Shown: positions 1-8,070 of the stretch, in pieces
Numbering within the stretch: the first letter of the stretch is position 1
Layout: every line of letters starts with the position of its first letter
From: Clostridia bacterium
GTDB taxonomy: Bacteria; Bacillota; DSM-521; Neomoorellales; Neomoorellaceae
Assembly (NCBI GenBank): GCA_030445875.1
Contig: JASUSX010000088.1
Coordinates: 1 to 8,070 of the forward strand
Length of the DNA: 8,070 nucleotides
Reading direction: 5' to 3'
Translations under genes and position numbers: made by a program
Notes under the pieces: generated by a model
The model's database searches: none
The model's input: only the letters and a program-made list of their open reading frames with translations
Told to the model about the DNA's origin: nothing

Positions 1-261
1 GTAGCTCGCCTGGCTGGTTTACCGGAGGAAGTGCTGCAACGTGCCCGGCAGCTCCTGGAGCAGCAGCCGGAAAGGGATACCCGGTTGCCGGGCAGTCAAG
101 CCAGGAAAATACCCCTGGTTAGTACAGAAAAACAGGTACTCCAGGAGCTGGTTTCCTTTAACCTGATAGCCGCTACACCTTTAGAAGCCATGGAACGGAT
201 CTTTCGCTGGCAGCAGCAACTGCAAAAACAACAGGCTATAGTGCCCATGGGGAGGAGGTGA
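1..261 (+). CDS. mutS: DNA mismatch repair protein MutS, C-terminal end (partial)
   Basis: The 5' part lies outside the window; the frame is open from base 1 and gives the last 86 residues. MutS is the mismatch-recognition ATPase that recruits MutL. The visible part starts with the family's post-ATPase motif VARLAGLPEEVL(Q)RA, the helical segment that follows the Walker domain. A variable linker follows, and then a short C-terminal helical region containing NLIAATPLEAMERIF, the 'TPLEAL' motif common near the end of MutS1 proteins. The Walker motifs are not in view. The stop overlaps the ribosome binding site of mutL, with 4 nt between the stop and the mutL start, so the two are translationally coupled. 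The gene order mutS-mutL also argues for MutS1 rather than MutS2. Confidence 0.93.
   Translation, partial: VARLAGLPEEVLQRARQLLEQQPERDTRLPGSQARKIPLVSTEKQVLQELVSFNLIAATPLEAMERIFRWQQQLQKQQAIVPMGRR
251..260 (+). promoter_or_regulatory. Ribosome binding site deciding the mutL TTG start
   Basis: GGAGGAGGTG lies five bases before the TTG at 266, within the last codons of mutS. It is the only strong Shine-Dalgarno sequence near the conserved mutL N-terminus. It therefore supports the non-ATG start and the extended N-terminus over later in-frame candidates. Confidence 0.75.
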
Positions 262-265
262 TCCC

Positions 266-2110
266 TTGCGTGAAAAGGTTGAAGCAGTGAGAGATAGCGC
301 TACCAGGGAGGCTGTACCGGGAGCCTCCCTTACCAGGATAGTTGTCCTGGATGCGGCCACTGCCAACCAGATAGCTGCCGGGGAGGTGGTGGAAAGGCCG
401 GGTTCGGTAGTCAAGGAGCTGGTGGAAAATTCCCTGGATGCCGTCGCCAGGCATATCGCGGTGGAGGTTAAAGGGGGTGGCCTGGAGTTAATCCGCGTCC
501 GGGATGACGGCCAGGGAATTTACCCGGAGGACGTCCCCCTGGCTTTTGCCCGCCACGCGACCAGTAAGATCCGCCGGGTGAGCGACCTGCTGGCGCTTAA
601 TACCCTGGGCTTCCGGGGGGAAGCCCTGCCCAGTATTGCCGCCGTAGCCAGGGTAGAAATGGACACCAGGCCCGCGGGGGAAATGGCTGGTACCAGGGTA
701 AGGATCGCCGGTGGTGGGGCCCCCGAAGTTACGACCACCGGTTGCCCGCCGGGCACGACGGTGACGGTCTGCGATCTCTTCTACAATACCCCGGCCCGGC
801 GCCAGTACTTAAAAAAACCGGCTACAGAGACACGGGCCATTGTCGCGGTGGTGGCAAGGCTCGCCCTGGCCCACCCGCAGGTAGCCTTGAGCCTGCAAAT
901 TGAAGGGAGGCGGGTGCTGGCTACCCCGGGTAACGCCGATTGGCAGGCGGTGGTAACAGCTGTCTATGGCCTGGAAACAGGCCGGGAGATGCTTCCCCTG
1001 GCCGGGGAAGGTGCAGGCTGGAGCCTGCAGGGATTCATTTCGCCACCGTGGTTGCACCGGGCGAACCGCAGCCAGCAGGTTTTAATTGTCAACGGCCGCT
1101 ATATCTTAAACCATGCCCTGACCTGGGCCGTGGAGAACTGCTACCAGGCCGTGATACCGGCCGGCCGCCACCCCCTCTTTATGCTGCAGCTGGCTATCGA
1201 CCCCTACCTGGTTGATGTTAACGTGCACCCGGCCAAAATGGAGGTCCGTTTTCAACAGGAAAGTGATCTGGTAAAGGGGGTTGCGGGCCTGGTGAACAGG
1301 GCCCTGCATACCCCAAAAGCTGTTCCCCCGGTAAAGGCCGGTATCCCAGTGCGCCAGCAGGGCTTTAATTTCCCCGTTAAGGAAAAGGAAGCCGGGTTTT
1401 GGGGAGAATATATACTGCGGGAAAAGCCGGCGGCGCAACCGGACCAAACATCCGGCCAGCCGGATGGCAGTCTTCAGCCTGAGAAAGAAGGCCGGGAAGC
1501 AGTACCGTTACCAGGCGGTGAGCAGCTCCTGCCACCTTTACGGGCCATAGGCCAGCTCTTTAATACTTATATCCTGGCTGAGGGCAGGGATGGCCTGTAT
1601 ATCATTGACCAGCATGCGGCCCACGAACGCTGCCGCTTTGAGAGCCTGCAGGAAAAGATAAATAGCGGCAGCCGGCCGCCGGCCCAGATGCTGGATCCCC
1701 CTGTTACCCTGCACCTGGCGCCAGATCTGGCTGTTAAGCTGGTGGACCAGATTGTGACCCTGCGGGAACTGGGGTTTATAGTTGAAAGTTTCGGCTCCAG
1801 CTCCTTTTTATTGCGTTCCGTACCCCTGGGAATACCCCCGGGCCAGGAAAGGAATGTCCTGGAGGACTTTCTGGCTGTCGATAGTATGCCAGCCCCGGAA
1901 AGGATGCTCAAGCTCATAGCCTGCCACGGGGCTATAAAAGCGGGCCAGCCCCTGGACAGGCTGGAGATCCAGAGCCTGCTGGCTGAAATCCAGGGCCTGC
2001 GGCGGCCCTTTACCTGCCCCCATGGCAGGCCCGCCGTGGTCCGCCTTGACCCGAATACCCTGGCGCGTTATTTTCACCGGCCACCAGCAGATAAAAACCT
2101 GCCGGGGTAA
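266..2110 (+). CDS. mutL: DNA mismatch repair protein MutL, endonuclease type
   Basis: A 614-residue MutL, the ATP-dependent effector of mismatch repair acting after MutS. The N-terminal GHKL ATPase shows ANQIAAGEVVERP (33-45), catalytic Glu51 and Mg-ligand Asn55 (by alignment with E. coli Glu29/Asn33), DDGQGI (80-85), and GFRGEAL (115-121). A proline- and glutamine-rich linker spans about 345-435. The C-terminal domain has the metal-dependent nicking motif DQHAAHERCRFE (448-459), which fits DQHA-x2-E-x4-E, plus ACHGAIKA (552-559) and CPHGRP (584-589). It is therefore a nicking MutL, as in bacteria lacking MutH. The start chosen is a TTG five bases after GGAGGAGGTG. It gives about 22 residues before the usual MutL N-terminus (VVLD..ANQIAAG). 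A GTG at 287 would shorten it by seven residues but has a weaker ribosome binding site. Confidence 0.96.
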   Translation: MREKVEAVRDSATREAVPGASLTRIVVLDAATANQIAAGEVVERPGSVVKELVENSLDAVARHIAVEVKGGGLELIRVRDDGQGIYPEDVPLAFARHATSKIRRVSDLLALNTLGFRGEALPSIAAVARVEMDTRPAGEMAGTRVRIAGGGAPEVTTTGCPPGTTVTVCDLFYNTPARRQYLKKPATETRAIVAVVARLALAHPQVALSLQIEGRRVLATPGNADWQAVVTAVYGLETGREMLPLAGEGAGWSLQGFISPPWLHRANRSQQVLIVNGRYILNHALTWAVENCYQAVIPAGRHPLFMLQLAIDPYLVDVNVHPAKMEVRFQQESDLVKGVAGLVNRALHTPKAVPPVKAGIPVRQQGFNFPVKEKEAGFWGEYILREKPAAQPDQTSGQPDGSLQPEKEGREAVPLPGGEQLLPPLRAIGQLFNTYILAEGRDGLYIIDQHAAHERCRFESLQEKINSGSRPPAQMLDPPVTLHLAPDLAVKLVDQIVTLRELGFIVESFGSSSFLLRSVPLGIPPGQERNVLEDFLAVDSMPAPERMLKLIACHGAIKAGQPLDRLEIQSLLAEIQGLRRPFTCPHGRPAVVRLDPNTLARYFHRPPADKNLPG

Positions 2111-2147
2111 GGGGCATCCAGGCCGGGAATGGAGAGGGGGTCCAGGT

Positions 2148-3107
2148 TTGACGGCAAAAACACCCCTGGCAGCCATTGTGGGACCTACAGCTACCGGCAA
2201 AACTGCTATCAGCCTGCAGGTGGCCGCCAGGCTCCGGGCCGAAATAATCTCCGTCGATTCGGCGCAGGTTTATCGTTACATGGACATTGGTACAGCCAAA
2301 CTACCCCCGGCCGCGAGGGTAGGTCCTGATGGCGTATCGATACCCCACCATTTAATCGACTTGATCGACCCGGATGAACCCTTCAGCGTAGCTGATTTTC
2401 AAAAGCTCGCCCGGAATATCATAACCTCCATCCACAGCCGCGGCCGCCTGCCCCTGCTAGTGGGAGGGACGGGCCTTTACTACCAGGCCGTCGTGGATCC
2501 CTACCTTTTTACTACTATGCCTGGAGACAAAATGATCAGGCAGAGGTTGGAGGAGCTGGCCCGGAACCGCGGCAATGATTACCTTCATGAGCAGTTAAAA
2601 AGGGTCGACCCGGTGGCAGCTGAGCGTATCCACGTCCATGACCGGCGCCGGCTGGTAAGGGCCCTAGAGGTATACGCCCTGACAGGGCAGCCTATTTCAG
2701 CCGCTATCGCGTGGCGCCAGCAACAGAAGACACCTTACCGCCTGGCGGCAGTAGCTCTGACTATGCCCCGGCCCCTGTTATACCGTCGTATTGAAGCCCG
2801 GGTCGATGCCATGCTCGAGCAGGGGTTGATCCAGGAGGTCAGGAGCCTCCTGCAGAGATATGACTACCGTTTACCTGCCCTCCAGGCCGTTGGTTATAAG
2901 GAAATTGGCGCCTATGTCCGGGGCGAGATGGAATTGCAAGAAGCCATAGAGCTGCTGAAGCGTAACACCAGGCGCCTGGCCAAAAGACAGCTCACCTGGT
3001 TCAGGCGGGACCAGCGCCTGCGCTGGTGGCAGGTTGAACCGGGTAAAATAGAGGAAATAGCGGCTGAGATTGCTAATTATATTGCAAGGGAGTTGATATT
3101 AATGTAG
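2148..3107 (+). CDS. miaA: tRNA dimethylallyltransferase MiaA
   Basis: MiaA transfers a dimethylallyl group from DMAPP to N6 of adenosine 37 in tRNAs that read codons starting with U. From the TTG start the protein has 319 residues, the normal family length. It shows the P-loop GPTATGKT (12-19), the substrate-binding stretch DSAQVYRYMDIGTAK (37-51; most relatives have DSMQVYR), HHLIDLIDPDEPFSV, VGGTGLYYQAV, and near the C-terminus QAVGYKEIG and TRRLAKRQLTWFRRD. The ORF is open from an ATG at 2022, but that start lies inside mutL and adds 42 residues unrelated to MiaA. The TTG at 2148 has GGAGAGGGGG (2131-2140) seven bases upstream and begins right before the P-loop strand. The mutL-miaA gap is 37 bp, consistent with one operon. 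Confidence 0.95.
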   Translation: MTAKTPLAAIVGPTATGKTAISLQVAARLRAEIISVDSAQVYRYMDIGTAKLPPAARVGPDGVSIPHHLIDLIDPDEPFSVADFQKLARNIITSIHSRGRLPLLVGGTGLYYQAVVDPYLFTTMPGDKMIRQRLEELARNRGNDYLHEQLKRVDPVAAERIHVHDRRRLVRALEVYALTGQPISAAIAWRQQQKTPYRLAAVALTMPRPLLYRRIEARVDAMLEQGLIQEVRSLLQRYDYRLPALQAVGYKEIGAYVRGEMELQEAIELLKRNTRRLAKRQLTWFRRDQRLRWWQVEPGKIEEIAAEIANYIARELILM

Positions 3108-3121
3108 AATAAGGATATACT
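3093..3121 (+). promoter_or_regulatory. Predicted sigma-A promoter for hfq
   Basis: TTGATA (3093-3098) and TATACT (3116-3121) are separated by exactly 17 bp. Each matches the sigma-A consensus at five of six positions. The -35 lies inside the last codons of miaA and the -10 in the miaA-hfq gap. Transcription would begin near 3128, about 25 nt before the hfq start. This would let hfq be made independently of the mismatch-repair genes. It is a prediction from sequence only. Confidence 0.7.
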
Positions 3122-3152
3122 AAACAAAAAATACCAACCTGGAGGGTAAAAG

Positions 3153-3407
3153 ATGAATAAAGGGCAAGGTAACCTGCAGGATTTATACTTAAACGTGCTG
3201 CGTCGGGACAATACCCCCGTGACTATCTACCTGGTTAACGGCTTTCAGCTCAAAGGGGTGGTGCGGGGTTTTGACAATTTTACCGTCGTACTGGATGCGG
3301 ACGGGAAGCAGCAGATGATCTACAAACACGCCATCTCTACCATCATGCCCTTCCGGCCGGTTAATGTCATGGCCGAGAGCAAAGGGGAAACAAATAACAG
3401 TAAATAG
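3153..3407 (+). CDS. hfq: RNA chaperone Hfq
   Basis: An 84-residue Hfq, the hexameric Sm-like protein that binds small RNAs and A-rich or U-rich mRNA segments. The conserved N-terminus [12 protein letters not shown] is followed by the Sm1 motif (about 23-48: [24 protein letters not shown]) and the Sm2 motif IYKHAIST (56-63). Gln9, Phe43, Lys58 and His59 correspond to the proximal-face uridine-binding residues. Two rim arginines (17, 18) are kept and the third position is Asn20. The C-terminal tail is short (about 18 residues), as in Gram-positive Hfq. GGAGGG sits six bases before the ATG. The gene lies 45 bp after miaA, the usual Firmicute arrangement, has its own predicted promoter, and is followed directly by a terminator. 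Confidence 0.97.
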
Positions 3408-3411
3408 CCGC

Positions 3412-3444
3412 AAGAAAATCCCGGCCTGGCCGGGTTTTTCTTTT
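3412..3444 (+). terminator. Intrinsic terminator after hfq
   Basis: CCCGG-CCTGG-CCGGG (3420-3434) forms a GC stem followed by TTTTTCTTTT. The A-rich AAGAAAA before the stem can pair with the T-run, so the element could also work on the other strand. It closes the mutS-mutL-miaA-hfq operon five bases after the hfq stop. Confidence 0.88.
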
Positions 3445-3462
3445 GTCTGGGAGAAAGATCCG

Positions 3463-3468
3463 TATAAT
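3463..3468 (+). promoter_or_regulatory. Possible -10 box (TATAAT) for the DUF1540 gene
   Basis: A perfect TATAAT lies 73 bp before the start codon, between the hfq terminator and the DUF1540 gene. The only -35-like hexamer nearby is TTGTCT at 3443-3448, and its 14-bp spacing is too short for a standard sigma-A promoter. The gene needs its own promoter because a terminator precedes it. A sporulation sigma factor is also possible, but I could not fit a clean consensus. Confidence 0.4.
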
Positions 3469-3541
3469 TCGTAAGCCGGGGTAAAAAAATAACATCCAGG
3501 TATGCATGATGCATCGTATGCCAACCGATGGAGGAATTATT

Positions 3542-3928
3542 ATGCCGGGACCCACGGTGAAGTGCAAGGTAAATACCTGTAACCACTGGATGAACGGCGA
3601 CCTGTGCTCGGCCGGTAATATTGATATTATGCATGAAGAAGAGGGCAGGATGGCTGGGAATCCTGAACAGACCCAGTGTAAGACCTTCTCACCCCGCCGG
3701 GGATTGGCCAACCTGATGGGTTCCCTGGATAATGTTAACTGGGGCGGTTTGCTGAGTAACACCTTTCTGCCGGGAGGAGAGCTTTACCCCTCGGTAACCT
3801 GTATTGTTAATAGCTGCTTTTACTGGGCTGAAGGTAATCACTGCCAAGCGGAGAAGATCGAGGTGGTAGGCGTCAACGCTGACGAAAGTCAGGACACCAA
3901 CTGCTTTGCCTATAAACGTAAAGGCTAA
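3542..3928 (+). CDS. Tandem DUF1540 domain protein (cysteine-rich, unknown function)
   Basis: A 128-residue soluble protein with two copies of the DUF1540 module. Copy one runs about 5-49 with Cys8, Cys13, Cys22 and Cys46. Copy two runs about 84-124 with Cys87, Cys92, Cys101 and Cys121. Both share the pattern V-x-C-x-V-N-x-C-x-x-W, then a third Cys followed by [S/Q]-A, and a final Cys followed by a two-residue aromatic ending. Four conserved cysteines per module suggest metal binding, probably zinc, but this is inference; the function of the family is unknown. The linker (50-83) is glycine-, asparagine- and leucine-containing without obvious motifs. The ATG at 3542 was chosen over one at 3506 because GGAGGAATT lies just before it and the domain begins immediately after. 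The gene stands alone between two terminators, upstream of spoVK. Confidence 0.85.
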   Translation: MPGPTVKCKVNTCNHWMNGDLCSAGNIDIMHEEEGRMAGNPEQTQCKTFSPRRGLANLMGSLDNVNWGGLLSNTFLPGGELYPSVTCIVNSCFYWAEGNHCQAEKIEVVGVNADESQDTNCFAYKRKG

Positions 3929-3929
3929 A

Positions 3930-3972
3930 AAGGAAAGAAATAGCAGGGCCGGTGCTGCCGGCCTTTTTTCTT
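3930..3972 (+). terminator. Intrinsic terminator after the DUF1540 gene
   Basis: GGCCGG (3947-3952), loop TGCTG, CCGGCC (3958-3963), then TTTTTTCTT. The preceding A-rich stretch can pair with the T-run. It separates the DUF1540 gene from spoVK. Confidence 0.87.
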
Positions 3973-4028
3973 AGCCGTAAGGGAGGTGCGTATAAATAAA
4001 ATAGGGCAGGGGAGGGAGAGGGAGAAGA

Positions 4029-5021
4029 GTGCAGGTTAAATTTGGCACCGGTAACTCCAAAATAAATGGCAGGCCCCTGATTCGCCCCCTGCAACGGGAT
4101 CGGAGCAGTGGGGACAGCGACCTGAACAGCCGGCGGCGGGTAGATAGCGTTATAGCTGAACTGGACCGGATGATTGGGTTAGAGAATGTTAAGGGCCTGG
4201 TTAAGGAATTGCGGGCCTTTGTGGAGATTCAGCGCCGGCGGCAGCGGGAAGGCCTGGCCAGTAACGTCAACACCCTGCATATGATCTTTAAGGGTAACCC
4301 GGGTACGGGGAAGAGTACCGTGGCCAGGTTGATGGGCAGGCTTTTTAAGGAGCTCGGGGTACTATCCCAGGGGCAGCTGGTGGAAGTAGAAAGGGCCGAC
4401 CTGGTGGGGGAATATATCGGTCATACAGCCCACAAAGCGCGGGAGCAATTAAAAAAGGCTATCGGGGGCATTCTCTTCATTGACGAGGCATATTCCCTGG
4501 CCCGGGGCGGGGAAAAGGACTTCGGCCGCGAGGCCATCGATGTTCTGGTCAAAGGGATGGAGGATCACCGCGAGAACATGATCCTTATCCTGGCTGGTTA
4601 CAGGGATGAAATGGACTATTTCCTGGAGACCAATCCGGGGTTGCGATCCCGTTTCCCCATCCAACTCGAATTTCCTGATTATACAGTACCTGAATTGCTG
4701 GCTATCGCCCAGTTAATGCTGGCCGAAAAACAATACCTGCTTACGCCGGGGGCGGTAACGGAATTGGAAAGGATGCTCCGCCGGGAGGTGCTTCTGGGCC
4801 ACCGCTATAACGGTAACGCCCGCATGGTCCGTAATATTATTGAGAGGGCCATGCGCCGCCAGGCCCTGCGGCTGGTAAATAAGAAGAACCTTACCCGGCA
4901 AGAGTTGATGAGCATTGAAAAAGAGGACCTTATGCGTCCGGTTCTACCAGCTGTGGTAAAAGCCGAGGCGGAAAAGGAGCTTTCGCCAGGGCCGCCGATC
5001 TGCTATAATAACTCCCGGTAA
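4029..5021 (+). CDS. spoVK: Stage V sporulation protein K, AAA+ ATPase (SpoVK/CbbX family)
   Basis: A 330-residue AAA+ ATPase. In Bacillus, SpoVK is needed for spore maturation; its substrate is not settled. The first 40 residues are divergent and basic. The AAA module shows Walker A GNPGTGKS (89-96), the family stretch ERADLVGEYIGHTA (121-134), Walker B ILFIDEAYSL (148-157), LILAGYRDEMD (186-196), arginine-finger region NPGLRSRFP (202-210) and sensor-2 region GNARMVRN (262-269). Length and these stretches match Bacillus SpoVK closely, which also separates it from the Rubisco activase CbbX, although they belong to one family. The GTG at 4029 is the only start that keeps the domain, because in-frame stops lie at 4002 and 3993. 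A purine-rich GGGGAGGGAGAGGGAG precedes it. It probably forms a unit with ynbB, 21 bp downstream. No clear promoter was recognised in the 56-bp leader. Confidence 0.93.
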   Translation: MQVKFGTGNSKINGRPLIRPLQRDRSSGDSDLNSRRRVDSVIAELDRMIGLENVKGLVKELRAFVEIQRRRQREGLASNVNTLHMIFKGNPGTGKSTVARLMGRLFKELGVLSQGQLVEVERADLVGEYIGHTAHKAREQLKKAIGGILFIDEAYSLARGGEKDFGREAIDVLVKGMEDHRENMILILAGYRDEMDYFLETNPGLRSRFPIQLEFPDYTVPELLAIAQLMLAEKQYLLTPGAVTELERMLRREVLLGHRYNGNARMVRNIIERAMRRQALRLVNKKNLTRQELMSIEKEDLMRPVLPAVVKAEAEKELSPGPPICYNNSR

Positions 5022-5042
5022 TTATAGTACGGGGGTTAAGAG

Positions 5043-6338
5043 TTGGATTGGTGTAAAGAGCTTACCCGGCTTTTTGCCATTGCCCCCTGGCTGGTAGAGA
5101 GACTGGTAACAGCCGAGGTGGCCAGCCGGGAGGCAATTGCCAGGGTACACGCTACCGGTGCCTGTAATCACCTCAAGGTTCTCCAGGCTTTCCAGGCTCA
5201 GGGGGTAAACGAGTACCATTTCCAGGATTCGACGGGCTATGCTTACGGCGACCTGGGGCGTTCTACCCTGGAGCGGATCTACGCCCGCCTCTTTGGCGGG
5301 GTATCCGCCCTGGTACGGCCGCAGATTGTTTCCGGTACCCATGCCCTGGCCCTGGCTTTAAGCGCCCTCCTGCGGCCCGGGGATAACATGTTATCCGCCT
5401 GTGGCCGCCCCTACGATACCTTGGCTACGGTTATCGGCCTGGGCCCGCGGGTACCGGGGAACCTGGGTGAGTGGGGGATAAAGTACGAGCAGGTGGATTT
5501 AGATCCCCGGGGACAACCAGACCTTACGAAACTGGCCGAGGCAGTCGCCAACCTGAAACCTCGCCTGTGTCTTATTCAGCGCTCCCGGGGATATAGCCTG
5601 CGTCCCTCCCTGGGCATAGCGGAAGTGGCCCGGGTGGTCGCTACCGTTAAAGAAGTTAACCGGGAAACCATCTGCCTGGTTGACAATTGTTACGGGGAAT
5701 TCGTCGAGGAACAGGAACCGGGTGAGGTAGGAGCTGACCTGGTGGTAGGTTCCTTAATTAAAAACCCCGGCGGTGGCCTGGCCCCGGGAGGGGGTTATAT
5801 AGTCGGGCAGGAAGACGCAGTAGAGCAGGTAGCGGCGCGCTTAACTGCTCCTGGTCTGGGGGGAGAGTTAGGGGCCTTTCAGGATAAACGCCTTTACTTT
5901 CAGGGTCTCTATCTGGCTCCCCTGGTGGTGCAGGAGGCCCTGACAGGGGCCATTGTGGCAGCTGCCTTTTTTCAGAGCCTGGGTTTTGACGTGCTACCCC
6001 GTCCCGAAGAACAGAGGGGGGATATCGTACAGTGCATTATCCTGGGCCAGCGGGAAAGGTTGGAAGCCTTTTGCCAGGGGCTACAAAAGGGCTGTCCGGT
6101 AGAAGCTTCGACAGTACCGGAGCCAGATCTGCTACCGGGGTATGAAGACCCGGTAATTATGGCTGGCGGGACTTTTATCCAGGGTTCCTCCATAGAACTC
6201 AGCGCCGATGGCCCTTTGCGGCCCCCCTTTGCCGTATTCCTCCAGGGCGGTCAGGCCTATCCTTATACCAGGGTGGCCCTCCTGCTGGCGGCTCAGGAAA
6301 TGGTAAACCGGGGTCTCCTTCAGGAGATGCGGCGGTAA
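5043..6338 (+). CDS. ynbB: YnbB-like PLP-dependent enzyme ('aluminium resistance protein', methionine gamma-lyase fold)
   Basis: A 431-residue fold-type I PLP protein of the Met_gamma_lyase/COG4100 family. These are often called aluminium resistance proteins or cystathionine beta-lyases involved in aluminium resistance; the physiological reaction is not established. Recognisable family stretches are STGYAYGDLGR, LVRPQIVSGTHAL, RPYDTL, IQRSRGYSLRPSL, DNCYGEFVE with Asp214 as likely cofactor-pyridine ligand, and GSLIKNPGGG in which Lys240 is the expected Schiff-base lysine. The length is close to Bacillus YnbB, and the neighbourhood (hfq, spoVK, ynbB) matches the Bacillus region, although hflX and glnR are not present here. 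The start is a TTG seven bases after GGGGG; a leading helix precedes the conserved core. The 3' end overlaps the lexA end by 19 bp on the opposite strand, and no terminator is seen after it. Confidence 0.9.
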   Translation: MDWCKELTRLFAIAPWLVERLVTAEVASREAIARVHATGACNHLKVLQAFQAQGVNEYHFQDSTGYAYGDLGRSTLERIYARLFGGVSALVRPQIVSGTHALALALSALLRPGDNMLSACGRPYDTLATVIGLGPRVPGNLGEWGIKYEQVDLDPRGQPDLTKLAEAVANLKPRLCLIQRSRGYSLRPSLGIAEVARVVATVKEVNRETICLVDNCYGEFVEEQEPGEVGADLVVGSLIKNPGGGLAPGGGYIVGQEDAVEQVAARLTAPGLGGELGAFQDKRLYFQGLYLAPLVVQEALTGAIVAAAFFQSLGFDVLPRPEEQRGDIVQCIILGQRERLEAFCQGLQKGCPVEASTVPEPDLLPGYEDPVIMAGGTFIQGSSIELSADGPLRPPFAVFLQGGQAYPYTRVALLLAAQEMVNRGLLQEMRR

Positions 6339-6940
6339 AGGCCAATAACCTTGCCCAGGATGGTTACTTCCTGGACCTTAATCGGGTGGAAGCGGCTGTT
6401 GGCCGGTAGCAGCTCGATGTGATCCTCATAGCGATGGAAGTATTTTACGGTAGCTTCCTCGTCCAGGAGGGCGACCACAATATCACCGTTCTCTGCCTGG
6501 TCCTGGGGCCTGACAATCAGGTAATCCCCGTCGAGGATACCGGCTTCGATCATGCTTTCCCCCCGGACCTGGAGCATGAAGGAATCCTCGCTCCCGGCTA
6601 GTTCGGAGGGTAAGGGGTAGACGTCCTCAATATTCTCCACTGCCAGGATGGGCTGGCCGGCAGCAATCTTTCCCAGCAGAGGGACGGAAACCATACTCCT
6701 GGTATTATGGCTGGCGGCAGGGTAGGGGGTCAGGATTTCAATAGCCCTGGAACGGGTGGGATCGCGGCGAATGTATCCTTTTTTCTCCAGGCGACTTAAA
6801 TGGCCGTGGACAGTAGAACTGGAACGCAGGCCGGTAGCCTGACAGATGTCCCGGACTGTAGGAGGATAGCCGTGGAGATCGATAAACTGGCGGATATAAT
6901 TGAGGACCATTTCCTGCCGGGGGGTTAAATCAGAGATCAA
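6320..6940 (-). CDS. lexA: SOS regulator LexA
   Basis: A 206-residue LexA: a repressor of SOS genes that cleaves itself when stimulated by RecA filaments. The N-terminal winged helix-turn-helix (about 1-70) reads LTPRQEMVLNYIRQF, GYPPTVRDICQATGLRSSSTVHGHLSRLEKKGYI. The S24-type protease domain shows the Ala94-Gly95 cleavage site (GKIAAGQP), catalytic Ser129 in GESM and Lys166 in ATVKY. All key residues are present, so it should be cleavable. The start is a TTG (6938-6940) six bases after AGGAGGAG on the minus strand. A promoter with a LexA-like box overlapping its -35 lies upstream, which points to autoregulation. The neighbouring minus-strand gene upstream ends in its own terminator, so lexA is probably monocistronic. 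Confidence 0.96.
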   Translation of the reverse strand: MISDLTPRQEMVLNYIRQFIDLHGYPPTVRDICQATGLRSSSTVHGHLSRLEKKGYIRRDPTRSRAIEILTPYPAASHNTRSMVSVPLLGKIAAGQPILAVENIEDVYPLPSELAGSEDSFMLQVRGESMIEAGILDGDYLIVRPQDQAENGDIVVALLDEEATVKYFHRYEDHIELLPANSRFHPIKVQEVTILGKVIGLYRRIS

Positions 6941-6976
6941 GTCAAACTCCTCCTAACCTGTAAACCTCTGCAATCT

Positions 6977-7005
6977 ATCCTAACATAATTTTACCCGGTA
7001 AACAA
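6977..7005 (-). promoter_or_regulatory. Predicted lexA promoter (extended -10)
   Basis: On the minus strand, TTGTTT (7005-7000) and TAGGAT (6982-6977) are separated by 17 bp. TG lies one base before the -10, making an extended -10 element (TGTTAGGAT). The start of transcription would be about 30 nt before the lexA TTG codon. The -35 is weak on its own. Confidence 0.6.
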
Positions 7006-7012
7006 CTGTTCG
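6999..7012 (-). promoter_or_regulatory. Degenerate LexA operator (SOS box) upstream of lexA
   Basis: The minus strand reads CGAAC-AGTT-GTTTA. It has one perfect half of the Gram-positive SOS box (CGAAC-N4-GTTCG) and a second half that differs at its last two bases. It overlaps the predicted -35 box of lexA, the position expected for an autoregulating repressor. Confidence 0.65.
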
Positions 7013-7182
7013 TTTCCAGGAAAGCAAAATATTTTAGATTTTCGACGGGATTTCGGCAGGATTACTGGAGAACATCAACCATGACTTCCGATAATAAATA
7101 TTATGTAAACCTAACGAAGGAATAAAAAAAGCATATGCAATAAAGCCGGTGATACTATGCATATCCAGCAATTATCCAGGGT
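7013..7182. other. AT-rich intergenic region upstream of lexA
   Basis: About 170 bp lie between the terminator of the predicted selenoprotein gene and the lexA operator. No ORF with a plausible ribosome binding site was seen. It contains short AT-rich inverted repeats (ATAAT-AAAT-ATTAT near 7091; ATATGCA at 7133-7139 with TGCATAT at 7158-7164) whose meaning is unknown. Confidence 0.5.
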
Positions 7183-7210
7183 TAAAAATATTACCGGTGC
7201 CAGCACCGGT
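7183..7210 (-). terminator. Intrinsic terminator after the predicted selenoprotein gene
   Basis: On the minus strand ACCGGTGC-TG-GCACCGGT (7210-7193) is a perfect 8-bp inverted repeat, followed by AATATTTTT. Its first base is the last base of the TAA stop at 7212-7210. The tight abutment to this TAA, and not to the earlier TGA, supports TAA as the true gene end. Confidence 0.85.
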
Positions 7211-7677
7211 TATTTATCACCCCGCATAGCTAATCCCTGGGCAATCACCGATTGCACCGCCGGGCTGCATCAGGTACCGGCGGGATTTTTGGTAAGGCAA
7301 TCGCGACCGGCATTAGCACCCGTATGCTCCCGGATGTCCTTTAAGTTATGGCGGCATTGCCGGGTTAGTATATGATCCAGTATCTCGCTATCCGTAACAT
7401 TATTACAGTAGCAGATTATCCGGGGCGAATTTTCCTTAAACCACACTGGCACGCGGATATGCCCTTTATAGAACACCCTGCCATCATCACTGTAGTAGAC
7501 AACGTTACACGCTGGTAACAGGCATAAATTGTACTGAGTGTCCCTTAAGGATGCCACCGCTTCCGCATTAAGTAAACTAGCAACCGTTACTGCCGGCACC
7601 TTTTGCCCGGTTGTACCACAAACCGGGCAAGGTGCGTCCGCCTCCTTGCTTTTACCCCCGCAGACTTGAGAACCCAC
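7210..7677 (-). CDS. Probable selenoprotein: CopZ-N/BFD-like zinc and [2Fe-2S] protein read through a UGA (Sec) codon
   Basis: The frame encodes 155 residues if the TGA at 7270-7272 is read as selenocysteine (residue 136); a simple ORF call stops there, at residue 135. The N-terminal part has CPVC (Cys17, Cys20) and a second pair, Cys52 and Cys57 (NLCLLPAC), followed by NVVYYSDDGRVFYKG. This is the zinc-type domain of the CopZ N-terminal family known from Archaeoglobus CopZ. The C-terminal part is BFD-like: CYC (Cys89, Cys91), then TGANAGRDC (Cys127) and TKNPAGT-U-C (Sec136, Cys137). Such cysteines bind a [2Fe-2S] cluster. No C-terminal HMA copper-binding domain follows, so a copper role is not shown. 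After the TGA, 19 sense codons lead to a TAA. I chose the GTG at 7677, eight bases after AGGGGGG; a TTG at 7722 is also open but overlaps the preceding small ORF and has no clear ribosome binding site. Confidence 0.75.
7235..7272 (-). promoter_or_regulatory. Predicted bacterial SECIS element (UGA plus downstream hairpin)
   Basis: Twenty bases after the UGA comes a GGU loop closed by a perfect 6-bp stem, GCAATC/GATTGC (7255-7250 and 7246-7241 on the minus strand). Below it a bulged U (7256) is followed by two more G-C pairs (7258-7257 with 7240-7239). A further CCC/GGG helix (7264-7262 with 7237-7235) can form beyond a small internal loop. A G at the top of the loop, a bulged U on the 5' side and a 16-37 nt distance from the UGA are the known marks of SelB-binding bacterial SECIS hairpins, as in E. 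coli fdhF. The fold was made by eye. Confidence 0.7.
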
Positions 7678-7690
7678 TGGCTTTACCCCC

Positions 7691-7825
7691 CTATTTATTC
7701 TCCGGTCCCCTTTCGGGGTCAATTATTACCTGCTTGCCGCGGATGCGGTGCAGTTCCCGGGCCCTTACCCTGGAACGGCGACCCTGGTTGGGGCCATGGC
7801 GGCTGAGTTTGAAACGTGCTGGCAT
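7691..7825 (-). CDS. Small basic protein of unknown function (44 residues)
   Basis: An ATG (7825-7823) is preceded by AGGGGTG with five-base spacing and opens a frame of 44 codons ending in TAG. The product is strongly basic, with ten arginines and three lysines, starting MPARFKLSRHGP and ending DPERGPENK. No signal peptide, membrane segment or cysteine is present. Its stop merges with the AGGGGGG that serves the following gene, and only 13 nt separate it from that GTG start, so the two are probably cotranscribed and coupled. I do not recognise the family; RNA or nucleic-acid binding would be a guess from charge alone. It may also be a leader ORF. The ribosome binding site and the tight spacing are the main evidence that it is translated. 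Confidence 0.5.
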   Translation of the reverse strand: MPARFKLSRHGPNQGRRSRVRARELHRIRGKQVIIDPERGPENK

Positions 7826-7850
7826 ATTTTCACCCCTGATATAGCCTGAT

Positions 7851-7864
7851 GGGGAATAGTCCCC
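7851..7864. repeat. Inverted repeat in the divergent intergenic region
   Basis: GGGGA-ATAG-TCCCC is a perfect 5-bp inverted repeat between the divergent small genes starting at 7825 (minus) and 7906 (plus). It lies where the -35 region of the plus-strand promoter would be. It could be an operator for an unknown regulator, but the short arms make chance possible. Confidence 0.35.
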
Positions 7865-7870
7865 GCCTTA

Positions 7871-7879
7871 TGGTACGAT
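7871..7879 (+). promoter_or_regulatory. Possible extended -10 promoter for the gene at 7906
   Basis: TGGTACGAT fits an extended -10 (TG-N-TAnnAT). No good -35 lies 17 bp upstream; that position holds the GGGGA/TCCCC repeat. Transcription would begin about 20 nt before the start codon. Confidence 0.35.
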
Positions 7880-7905
7880 AATAAGCTTCAAAGGGGGGAT
7901 TTCAG

Positions 7906-8061
7906 GTGCTTAGAGCCCGCTTTGCCATGGGAACGCGCCGTCAACGGCGCGGATGGCCCTGGTGGCTCACCCTGCTGGCTTACCCCATGGGCTTGCTGGA
8001 TGGGTATTTATTGAGCTTGTGGCTGCGACGGCGTCGCGCAGAACAAGAACCTGCCGGTTAG
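7906..8061 (+). CDS. Small single-helix membrane protein of unknown function (51 residues)
   Basis: A GTG start is preceded by AAGGGGGG with seven to eight bases of spacing. The 51-residue product has a basic N-terminal part (RFAMGTRRQRRG), a hydrophobic stretch at about 17-40 (WPWWLTLLAYPMGLL...LLSLWL) that could span the membrane once, and a second basic cluster RRRR (41-44) followed by an acidic, soluble tail. Basic residues on both sides leave the topology unclear. It is too short to place in a family and I do not recognise it. It is transcribed away from the predicted selenoprotein pair, across an 80-bp gap that may hold shared regulation. Confidence 0.5.
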   Translation: MLRARFAMGTRRQRRGWPWWLTLLAYPMGLLDGYLLSLWLRRRRAEQEPAG

Positions 8062-8070
8062 CCGGGGGCT

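Follow-up and report, generated by a model that had tools for sequence, protein, structure and literature searches.

Selenoproteins related to the copper chaperone CopZ are a kind already in print: a 2026 review lists in its Table 1 a '(2Fe-2S)-binding protein (copper chaperone Copz family) form 1', assigned to cd10141, with the motif GxUC and predicted with high confidence (PMC13188914), and forms 1 and 2 both appear in the list of PMC9312934. In PMC2398784, the review's source for form 1, a word search of the main text returned none of CopZ, copper chaperone and 2Fe-2S, and no title or abstract on a CopZ-type selenoprotein from Moorella was found among the literature matches listed. Here we analyse a gene in a stretch of 8,070 nt from a Clostridia bacterium of the genus Moorella (family Neomoorellaceae; assembly GCA_030445875.1, contig JASUSX010000088.1, positions 1 to 8,070 of the forward strand), called the window throughout. 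With a probability of about 0.9, the gene encodes a CopZ-N/BFD-type protein of 155 residues in which UGA codon 136 specifies selenocysteine (Sec), directed by a predicted selenocysteine insertion sequence (SECIS) 20 nt downstream. What is new here is the Moorella members, a hairpin frozen in sequence beyond the UGA, one main origin of Sec, the predicted ligand geometry, and the arsenic or mercury gene neighbours of some relatives. An earlier note on this DNA had called the selenoprotein unannotated, which is right in so far as the Moorella entries found end at 135–136 amino acids and wrong in that its kind is catalogued as form 1 in PMC13188914.

The window protein has in common with form 1 the CopZ/BFD-like domain, a single Sec and the motif GxUC (here GTUC, in a domain above the Fer2_BFD gathering score), a placement made by motif and domain only, not against the representative WP_245779778.1, in a row from which Moorella is absent. 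The Csac_0668 family (NF045877, CopZ_Nterm_CU; form 2, CU), described as including selenoprotein members, has the same two-domain architecture. Membership of that family was considered and rejected, since the window protein reaches 133 of the 190 bits required and the family relatives carry their TGA at the N terminus; none of the 22 class genomes exceeds the cut-off. Six relatives show the form 2 arrangement, their TGA lying near the N terminus (CU in L040, L045 and L050–L052; DU in L039) and the C-terminal GxCC being kept; three of them (L039, L040 and L045) are above the NF045877 cut-off. For NF047645 (CopZ_Nterm_CC) the window protein reaches 88.5 bits, below the cut-off of 100. The N-terminal domain of Archaeoglobus fulgidus CopZ (2hu9) has CC where the window protein has UC. 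Full CopZ bears a further copper-binding domain, and the heavy-metal-binding (HMA) domain is defining for the CopZ copper chaperone proper; a Pfam scan of the 155 residues (E 0.001) found zf_CopZ and Fer2_BFD only and no HMA domain, which places the window protein outside CopZ proper. Bfd (6e6s/4e6k), in turn, lacks the zf_CopZ half and has Cys where the window protein has Sec; its spacing is CxxC (C38 and C41 in the printed chain), whereas that of the window protein, from C127 to UC, is wider.

The gene and its parts lie in the window as follows.
7210..7677, minus strand: selenoprotein gene, predicted zf_CopZ + Fer2_BFD protein, 155 codons and TAA, GTG start (translation, Pfam)
7456..7632, minus strand: zf_CopZ domain, residues 16–74 (C17, C20, C52, C57)
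7240..7419, minus strand: BFD-like [2Fe-2S] domain, residues 87–146 (C89, C91, C127, U136, C137)
7270..7272, minus strand: in-frame TGA, predicted Sec136 (TGA kept across the genus; Cys at the equivalent place of GxCC tails)
7267..7269, minus strand: TGC, Cys137, predicted fourth [2Fe-2S] ligand (invariance and structure alignment; the sequence alignment differs)
7241..7257, minus strand: frozen 17 nt GTGCAATCGGTGATTGC, predicted bacterial SECIS, stem 7255–7250 with 7246–7241 and loop GGT 7249–7247 (conservation and folding)
7193..7210, minus strand: terminator-like stem-loop and T-rich tail, 3' of the TAA (stem scan)

The frame proved to be laid out as the earlier note had described it. Read on the minus strand from 7677 to 7210, 135 codons lead to the TGA (7272–7270), which is followed by TGC, 18 further codons (19 past the TGA in all) and a TAA (7212–7210), on the last A of which the terminator-like stem 7210–7193 begins; four terminator-like sites were observed in 6900–8070, with 1.6 expected from shuffles. 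Both Pfam domains pass on the 155-residue product, zf_CopZ with 67.7 bits (gathering score 28.4) and Fer2_BFD with 29.1 (gathering score 26). The claim that three of the four expected cluster cysteines precede the TGA also held, since C89, C91 and C127, family-invariant Cys residues of the BFD half, stand before it and C137 beyond it. A stop at the UGA would give a product without the fourth predicted ligand and without the predicted last helix. Such a product, a protein of 135 residues ending at a true stop, is what public databases hold: a protein search returned 12 proteins, among them the window's own (P0002), all of 135–136 amino acids and all ending directly before the TGA, and all eight that bear an NCBI name come from Moorella and are called, for example, '(2Fe-2S)-binding protein'. 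We nevertheless consider a true stop very improbable, given that many genera conserve the tail past the UGA as a reading frame, with its synonymous sites frozen as well, and that the last predicted cluster ligand lies within it. On the Sec reading, the truncation of this protein would be corrected for the Moorella entries found.

Conservation around the UGA carries much of the argument. Matches were found in 12 of 18 family genomes, 11 of them in the window's genus (its own genome included) and one with Cys (G016), and the same TGA stands at the same place in all ten other genus genomes, one of which (G007) has the gene broken by a frame break with the TGA in the second piece. A scan of a genome collection of 84,980 species with a pattern for U-C-x3-V-Q-S-V-I-A, which allows 384 synonymous spellings of the 17 nt, returned 53 loci, of which 50 spell GTGCAATCGGTGATTGC and three differ from it by one synonymous base. 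Since the TGA is at one place across the genus and the 17 nt are near-invariant in 53 loci, the conservation of TGA and tail is beyond chance. The constraint acts on spelling: in a codon-usage set of 52 sequences (51 named loci and the window, leaving out L109 and L126), one codon alone is used at +5, at +7 and at +9, and nearly so at +6 (50 sequences) and +8 (51), and for the surrounding conserved Pro, Gly, Cys and Thr codons every synonym is used.

The frozen stretch is a predicted bacterial SECIS, with G18–C23 pairing with G27–C32 around a GGU loop. The rules given in PMC13188914 are a loop of 3–9 nt, an upper stem of 4–16 bp, a G within the first two loop positions, a distance of 16–37 nt from the UGA and a minimum free energy of −7.5 kcal/mol or lower, and the window hairpin falls within all of these (loop GGU, 6 bp, 20 nt, −13.8 kcal/mol). 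Counted by our own criteria, at −3 kcal/mol or better, all 25 Sec tails (10 from Moorella) have such a hairpin, vs 5 of 39 Cys tails, or 13 of 39 Cys tails at any energy. In 49 distinct sequences 99.7% of helix cells pair, and one relative (L075) shows a G-C to U-A double change on both stem sides. Frozen as it is across many genera, the hairpin offers a precise DNA signature for finding the family. An Rfam scan of the window gave no match above gathering scores.

The genus, moreover, has the means to decode UGA. Genes selA, selB and selD are each above cut-off in 10 of 11 genus genomes, and the tRNA-Sec model is above its gathering score in 11 of 11, with best matches of 69.5–73.8 bits; ARAGORN independently calls the copy in the window's own genome tRNA-SeC with anticodon tca. 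Additionally, NF041239, another known selenoprotein family, has its TGA in all 11 genus genomes, the window's own included.

Several points weigh against reading the UGA as Sec. In the window's own genome (58.8% complete) none of selA, selB and selD is above cut-off, and this genome is the sole miss each time; among 14 control genomes, the tRNA-Sec model also exceeds its cut-off in five. Covariation amounts to the one double change, equalled by slides of +1 and +3, a thin signal owing to the near-invariance of the helix; the window tail folds no more stably than its shuffles (z 0.41 and 0.12); of the 24 Sec tails folded, three (L059, L072 and L076) have a minimum-energy fold other than the hairpin; and one Sec relative (L089) has a different, weaker hairpin, which at −5.1 kcal/mol misses the −7.5 kcal/mol rule. 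The Sec machinery that the earlier note proposed to check is present in the genus, with a tRNA-Sec in the window's genome itself, although selA, selB and selD are wanting in that incomplete assembly. Homologues with Cys at position 136, which it had named as support, do occur, 39 GxCC tails carrying Cys there. We therefore uphold its proposal that the TGA encodes Sec, because the TGA and tail are conserved, a SECIS-type hairpin follows, Cys homologues match at the same place and the genus has Sec machinery; the UGA would be decoded by the SelB/tRNA-Sec system of the genus.

Premature stopping at the UGA under selenium shortage is general in Sec decoding. The gene might for that reason serve to make two products, a Sec-containing protein by readthrough when selenium is available and, under scarcity, a regulated short form that lacks the cluster; the short form would retain the entire zf_CopZ half. 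No conserved feature needing a short form was found here, however, and regulated production of both forms seems improbable to us.

Considering the protein as read through, we expect a zinc site in the zf_CopZ domain and a [2Fe-2S] cluster on C89, C91, C127 and C137. The fold of the predicted model matches the Archaeoglobus CopZ N-terminal domain, 2hu9 and Bfd being the only clear matches in the structure search. The range ends of the structure alignment (152 with 56, 153 with 57) place C137 against Bfd Cys41, provided that the last helix is ungapped, and U136 aligns with C118 of Archaeoglobus CopZ, for which we take the ligand set to be C75, C77, C109 and C119. Together these suggest that Sec136 lies one residue ahead of the last ligand, C137, forming a Sec–Cys pair beside the cluster. 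The alternative that Sec136 is itself the ligand and Cys137 its neighbour was considered and ranked second: we hold it to be rather unlikely in view of the structure alignment and of the pairing with C118. Two observations favour it nonetheless. The sequence alignment, which counts against C137 as the counterpart of Bfd Cys41, places that residue opposite C127 and leaves the UC pair unaligned; and conservation cannot separate the two candidates, because all 111 tree rows, themselves chosen by that motif, have either Sec or Cys at position 136 and none departs from Cys at 137, which is also invariant in family sets A3 and A5. It also tells against the assignment as a whole that the cluster ligands come from alignment. 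The earlier proposal of a U-C motif next to or within a [2Fe-2S] site is thereby tentatively narrowed, with structure-based evidence favouring a place beside C137 over the role of ligand. If the predicted geometry is true, the protein would be a small soluble system in which to test the effect of a selenolate beside a [2Fe-2S] cluster.

A hidden Markov model (HMM) search through 398 genomes of the phylum gave a match in 81. The protein/genus, class and phylum surveys yielded 69 loci, with 24 GxUC tails, 39 GxCC tails and six that did not fit the tail expression (L011, L013, L045, L075, L090 and L091), of which L075 was added later to the hairpin count. A tree of 111 rows (71 Sec and 40 Cys), picked by the Sec/Cys motif, with position 136 masked and midpoint rooting, left out L109 and L126, the partial upstream frames L101, L118, L124, L141 and L142, and L011, L013, L045 and L090. 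Distinct tails number 59 Sec and 39 Cys, since 12 Sec pairs among the 71 rows are identical sequences met twice. In this tree 70 of 71 Sec rows form one clade (99/92), with Moorella within it (100/99), and the topology indicates one main origin of Sec for the family. No Cys row lies inside the Sec clade among rows from the HMM and protein searches; Cys reversions among the named rows would be missed, because those rows were found via their TGA. The remaining Sec row, L089 (G157), is a stand-alone BFD protein with GTUC, placed apart on a long branch, at a position that the program flags as unsure, with its own possible hairpin GUUGAA-GUU-UUCAAC; it is likely a second origin of Sec in the family.

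Cys108 is found in 70 of 71 Sec rows vs 2 of 40 Cys rows, and Cys109 in 69 of 71 vs 2 of 40, an extra TGA of L125 being counted as Cys. The idea of the C108–C109 pair as a Sec-specific invention is weakened, since the Pseudomonas Bfd chain has CC at the aligned place, the window protein has C108 followed by Arg109, and the pair is missing from L089, the Sec row outside the clade.

Some relatives depart from the common pattern. In L125, from a Peptococcaceae metagenome-assembled genome (MAG), a second in-frame TGA at 5108–5110 (minus strand) occupies the C109 position (GCU), upstream of the GTUC TGA, and may encode another Sec or else stem from mutation or faulty sequencing. L109 and L126, from Clostridia MAGs, keep the UGA–hairpin tail with no recognisable BFD domain and are possibly internal-deletion relics; a P0001 search of their genomes gave no match, a blank that shows little. 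Short frames in L114, L127 and L130 (Sporomusaceae and Negativicutes MAGs), BFD-only by look, carry GxUC and the same frozen hairpin.

As to function, the review PMC7558416 ascribes Cu(II) reduction to the iron–sulfur domain of A. fulgidus CopZ. Within 4 kb of the 53 loci we counted seven ACR3-like, six MerR-like and six ArsR-like neighbours (the last assigned by eye), together at 14 of 53. For the 46 loci outside Moorella, 111 near neighbours were compared with models: four match that for ACR3 and five that for the mercury MerR, and the same five fit copper, zinc and cadmium regulator models too, at weaker best E-values. We tentatively propose a reducing chaperone for soft metals or metalloids as the most likely role: the selenolate by the cluster would bind or reduce copper, mercury or arsenic species with cluster electrons. 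Against this stand the neighbourhood counts, which are raw and carry no background rate, and the genus itself, where a lexA homologue is the next gene in five named Moorella loci (that of the window confirmed by Pfam); no metal gene was noticed by eye near these five, whose neighbours were not scanned with models. Because the Moorella neighbour is lexA and not a metal gene, the role is drawn from distant relatives. A further step, which we think unlikely, is that clade-wide the Sec–Cys pair lies in the second shell of the [2Fe-2S] cluster and is joined by C108–C109 in a selenolate/thiolate site, at which cluster electrons would reduce or load soft metals or metalloids; the protein would then be a selenium-tuned [2Fe-2S] metal reductase, which a single ancestral change from Cys to Sec had fixed in this lineage.

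Finally, between the selenoprotein gene and lexA lies a palindromic element of 23 nt, ACATAATNNTTATTATNGGAAGT (7084–7106, minus strand), which occurs in exactly one copy per genome in all 11 Moorella genomes, the reversed control giving none, and which may serve lexA as an operator or promoter element. A methionine gamma-lyase homologue (5043–6338, plus strand; Pfam 510.6 bits) is convergent with lexA.
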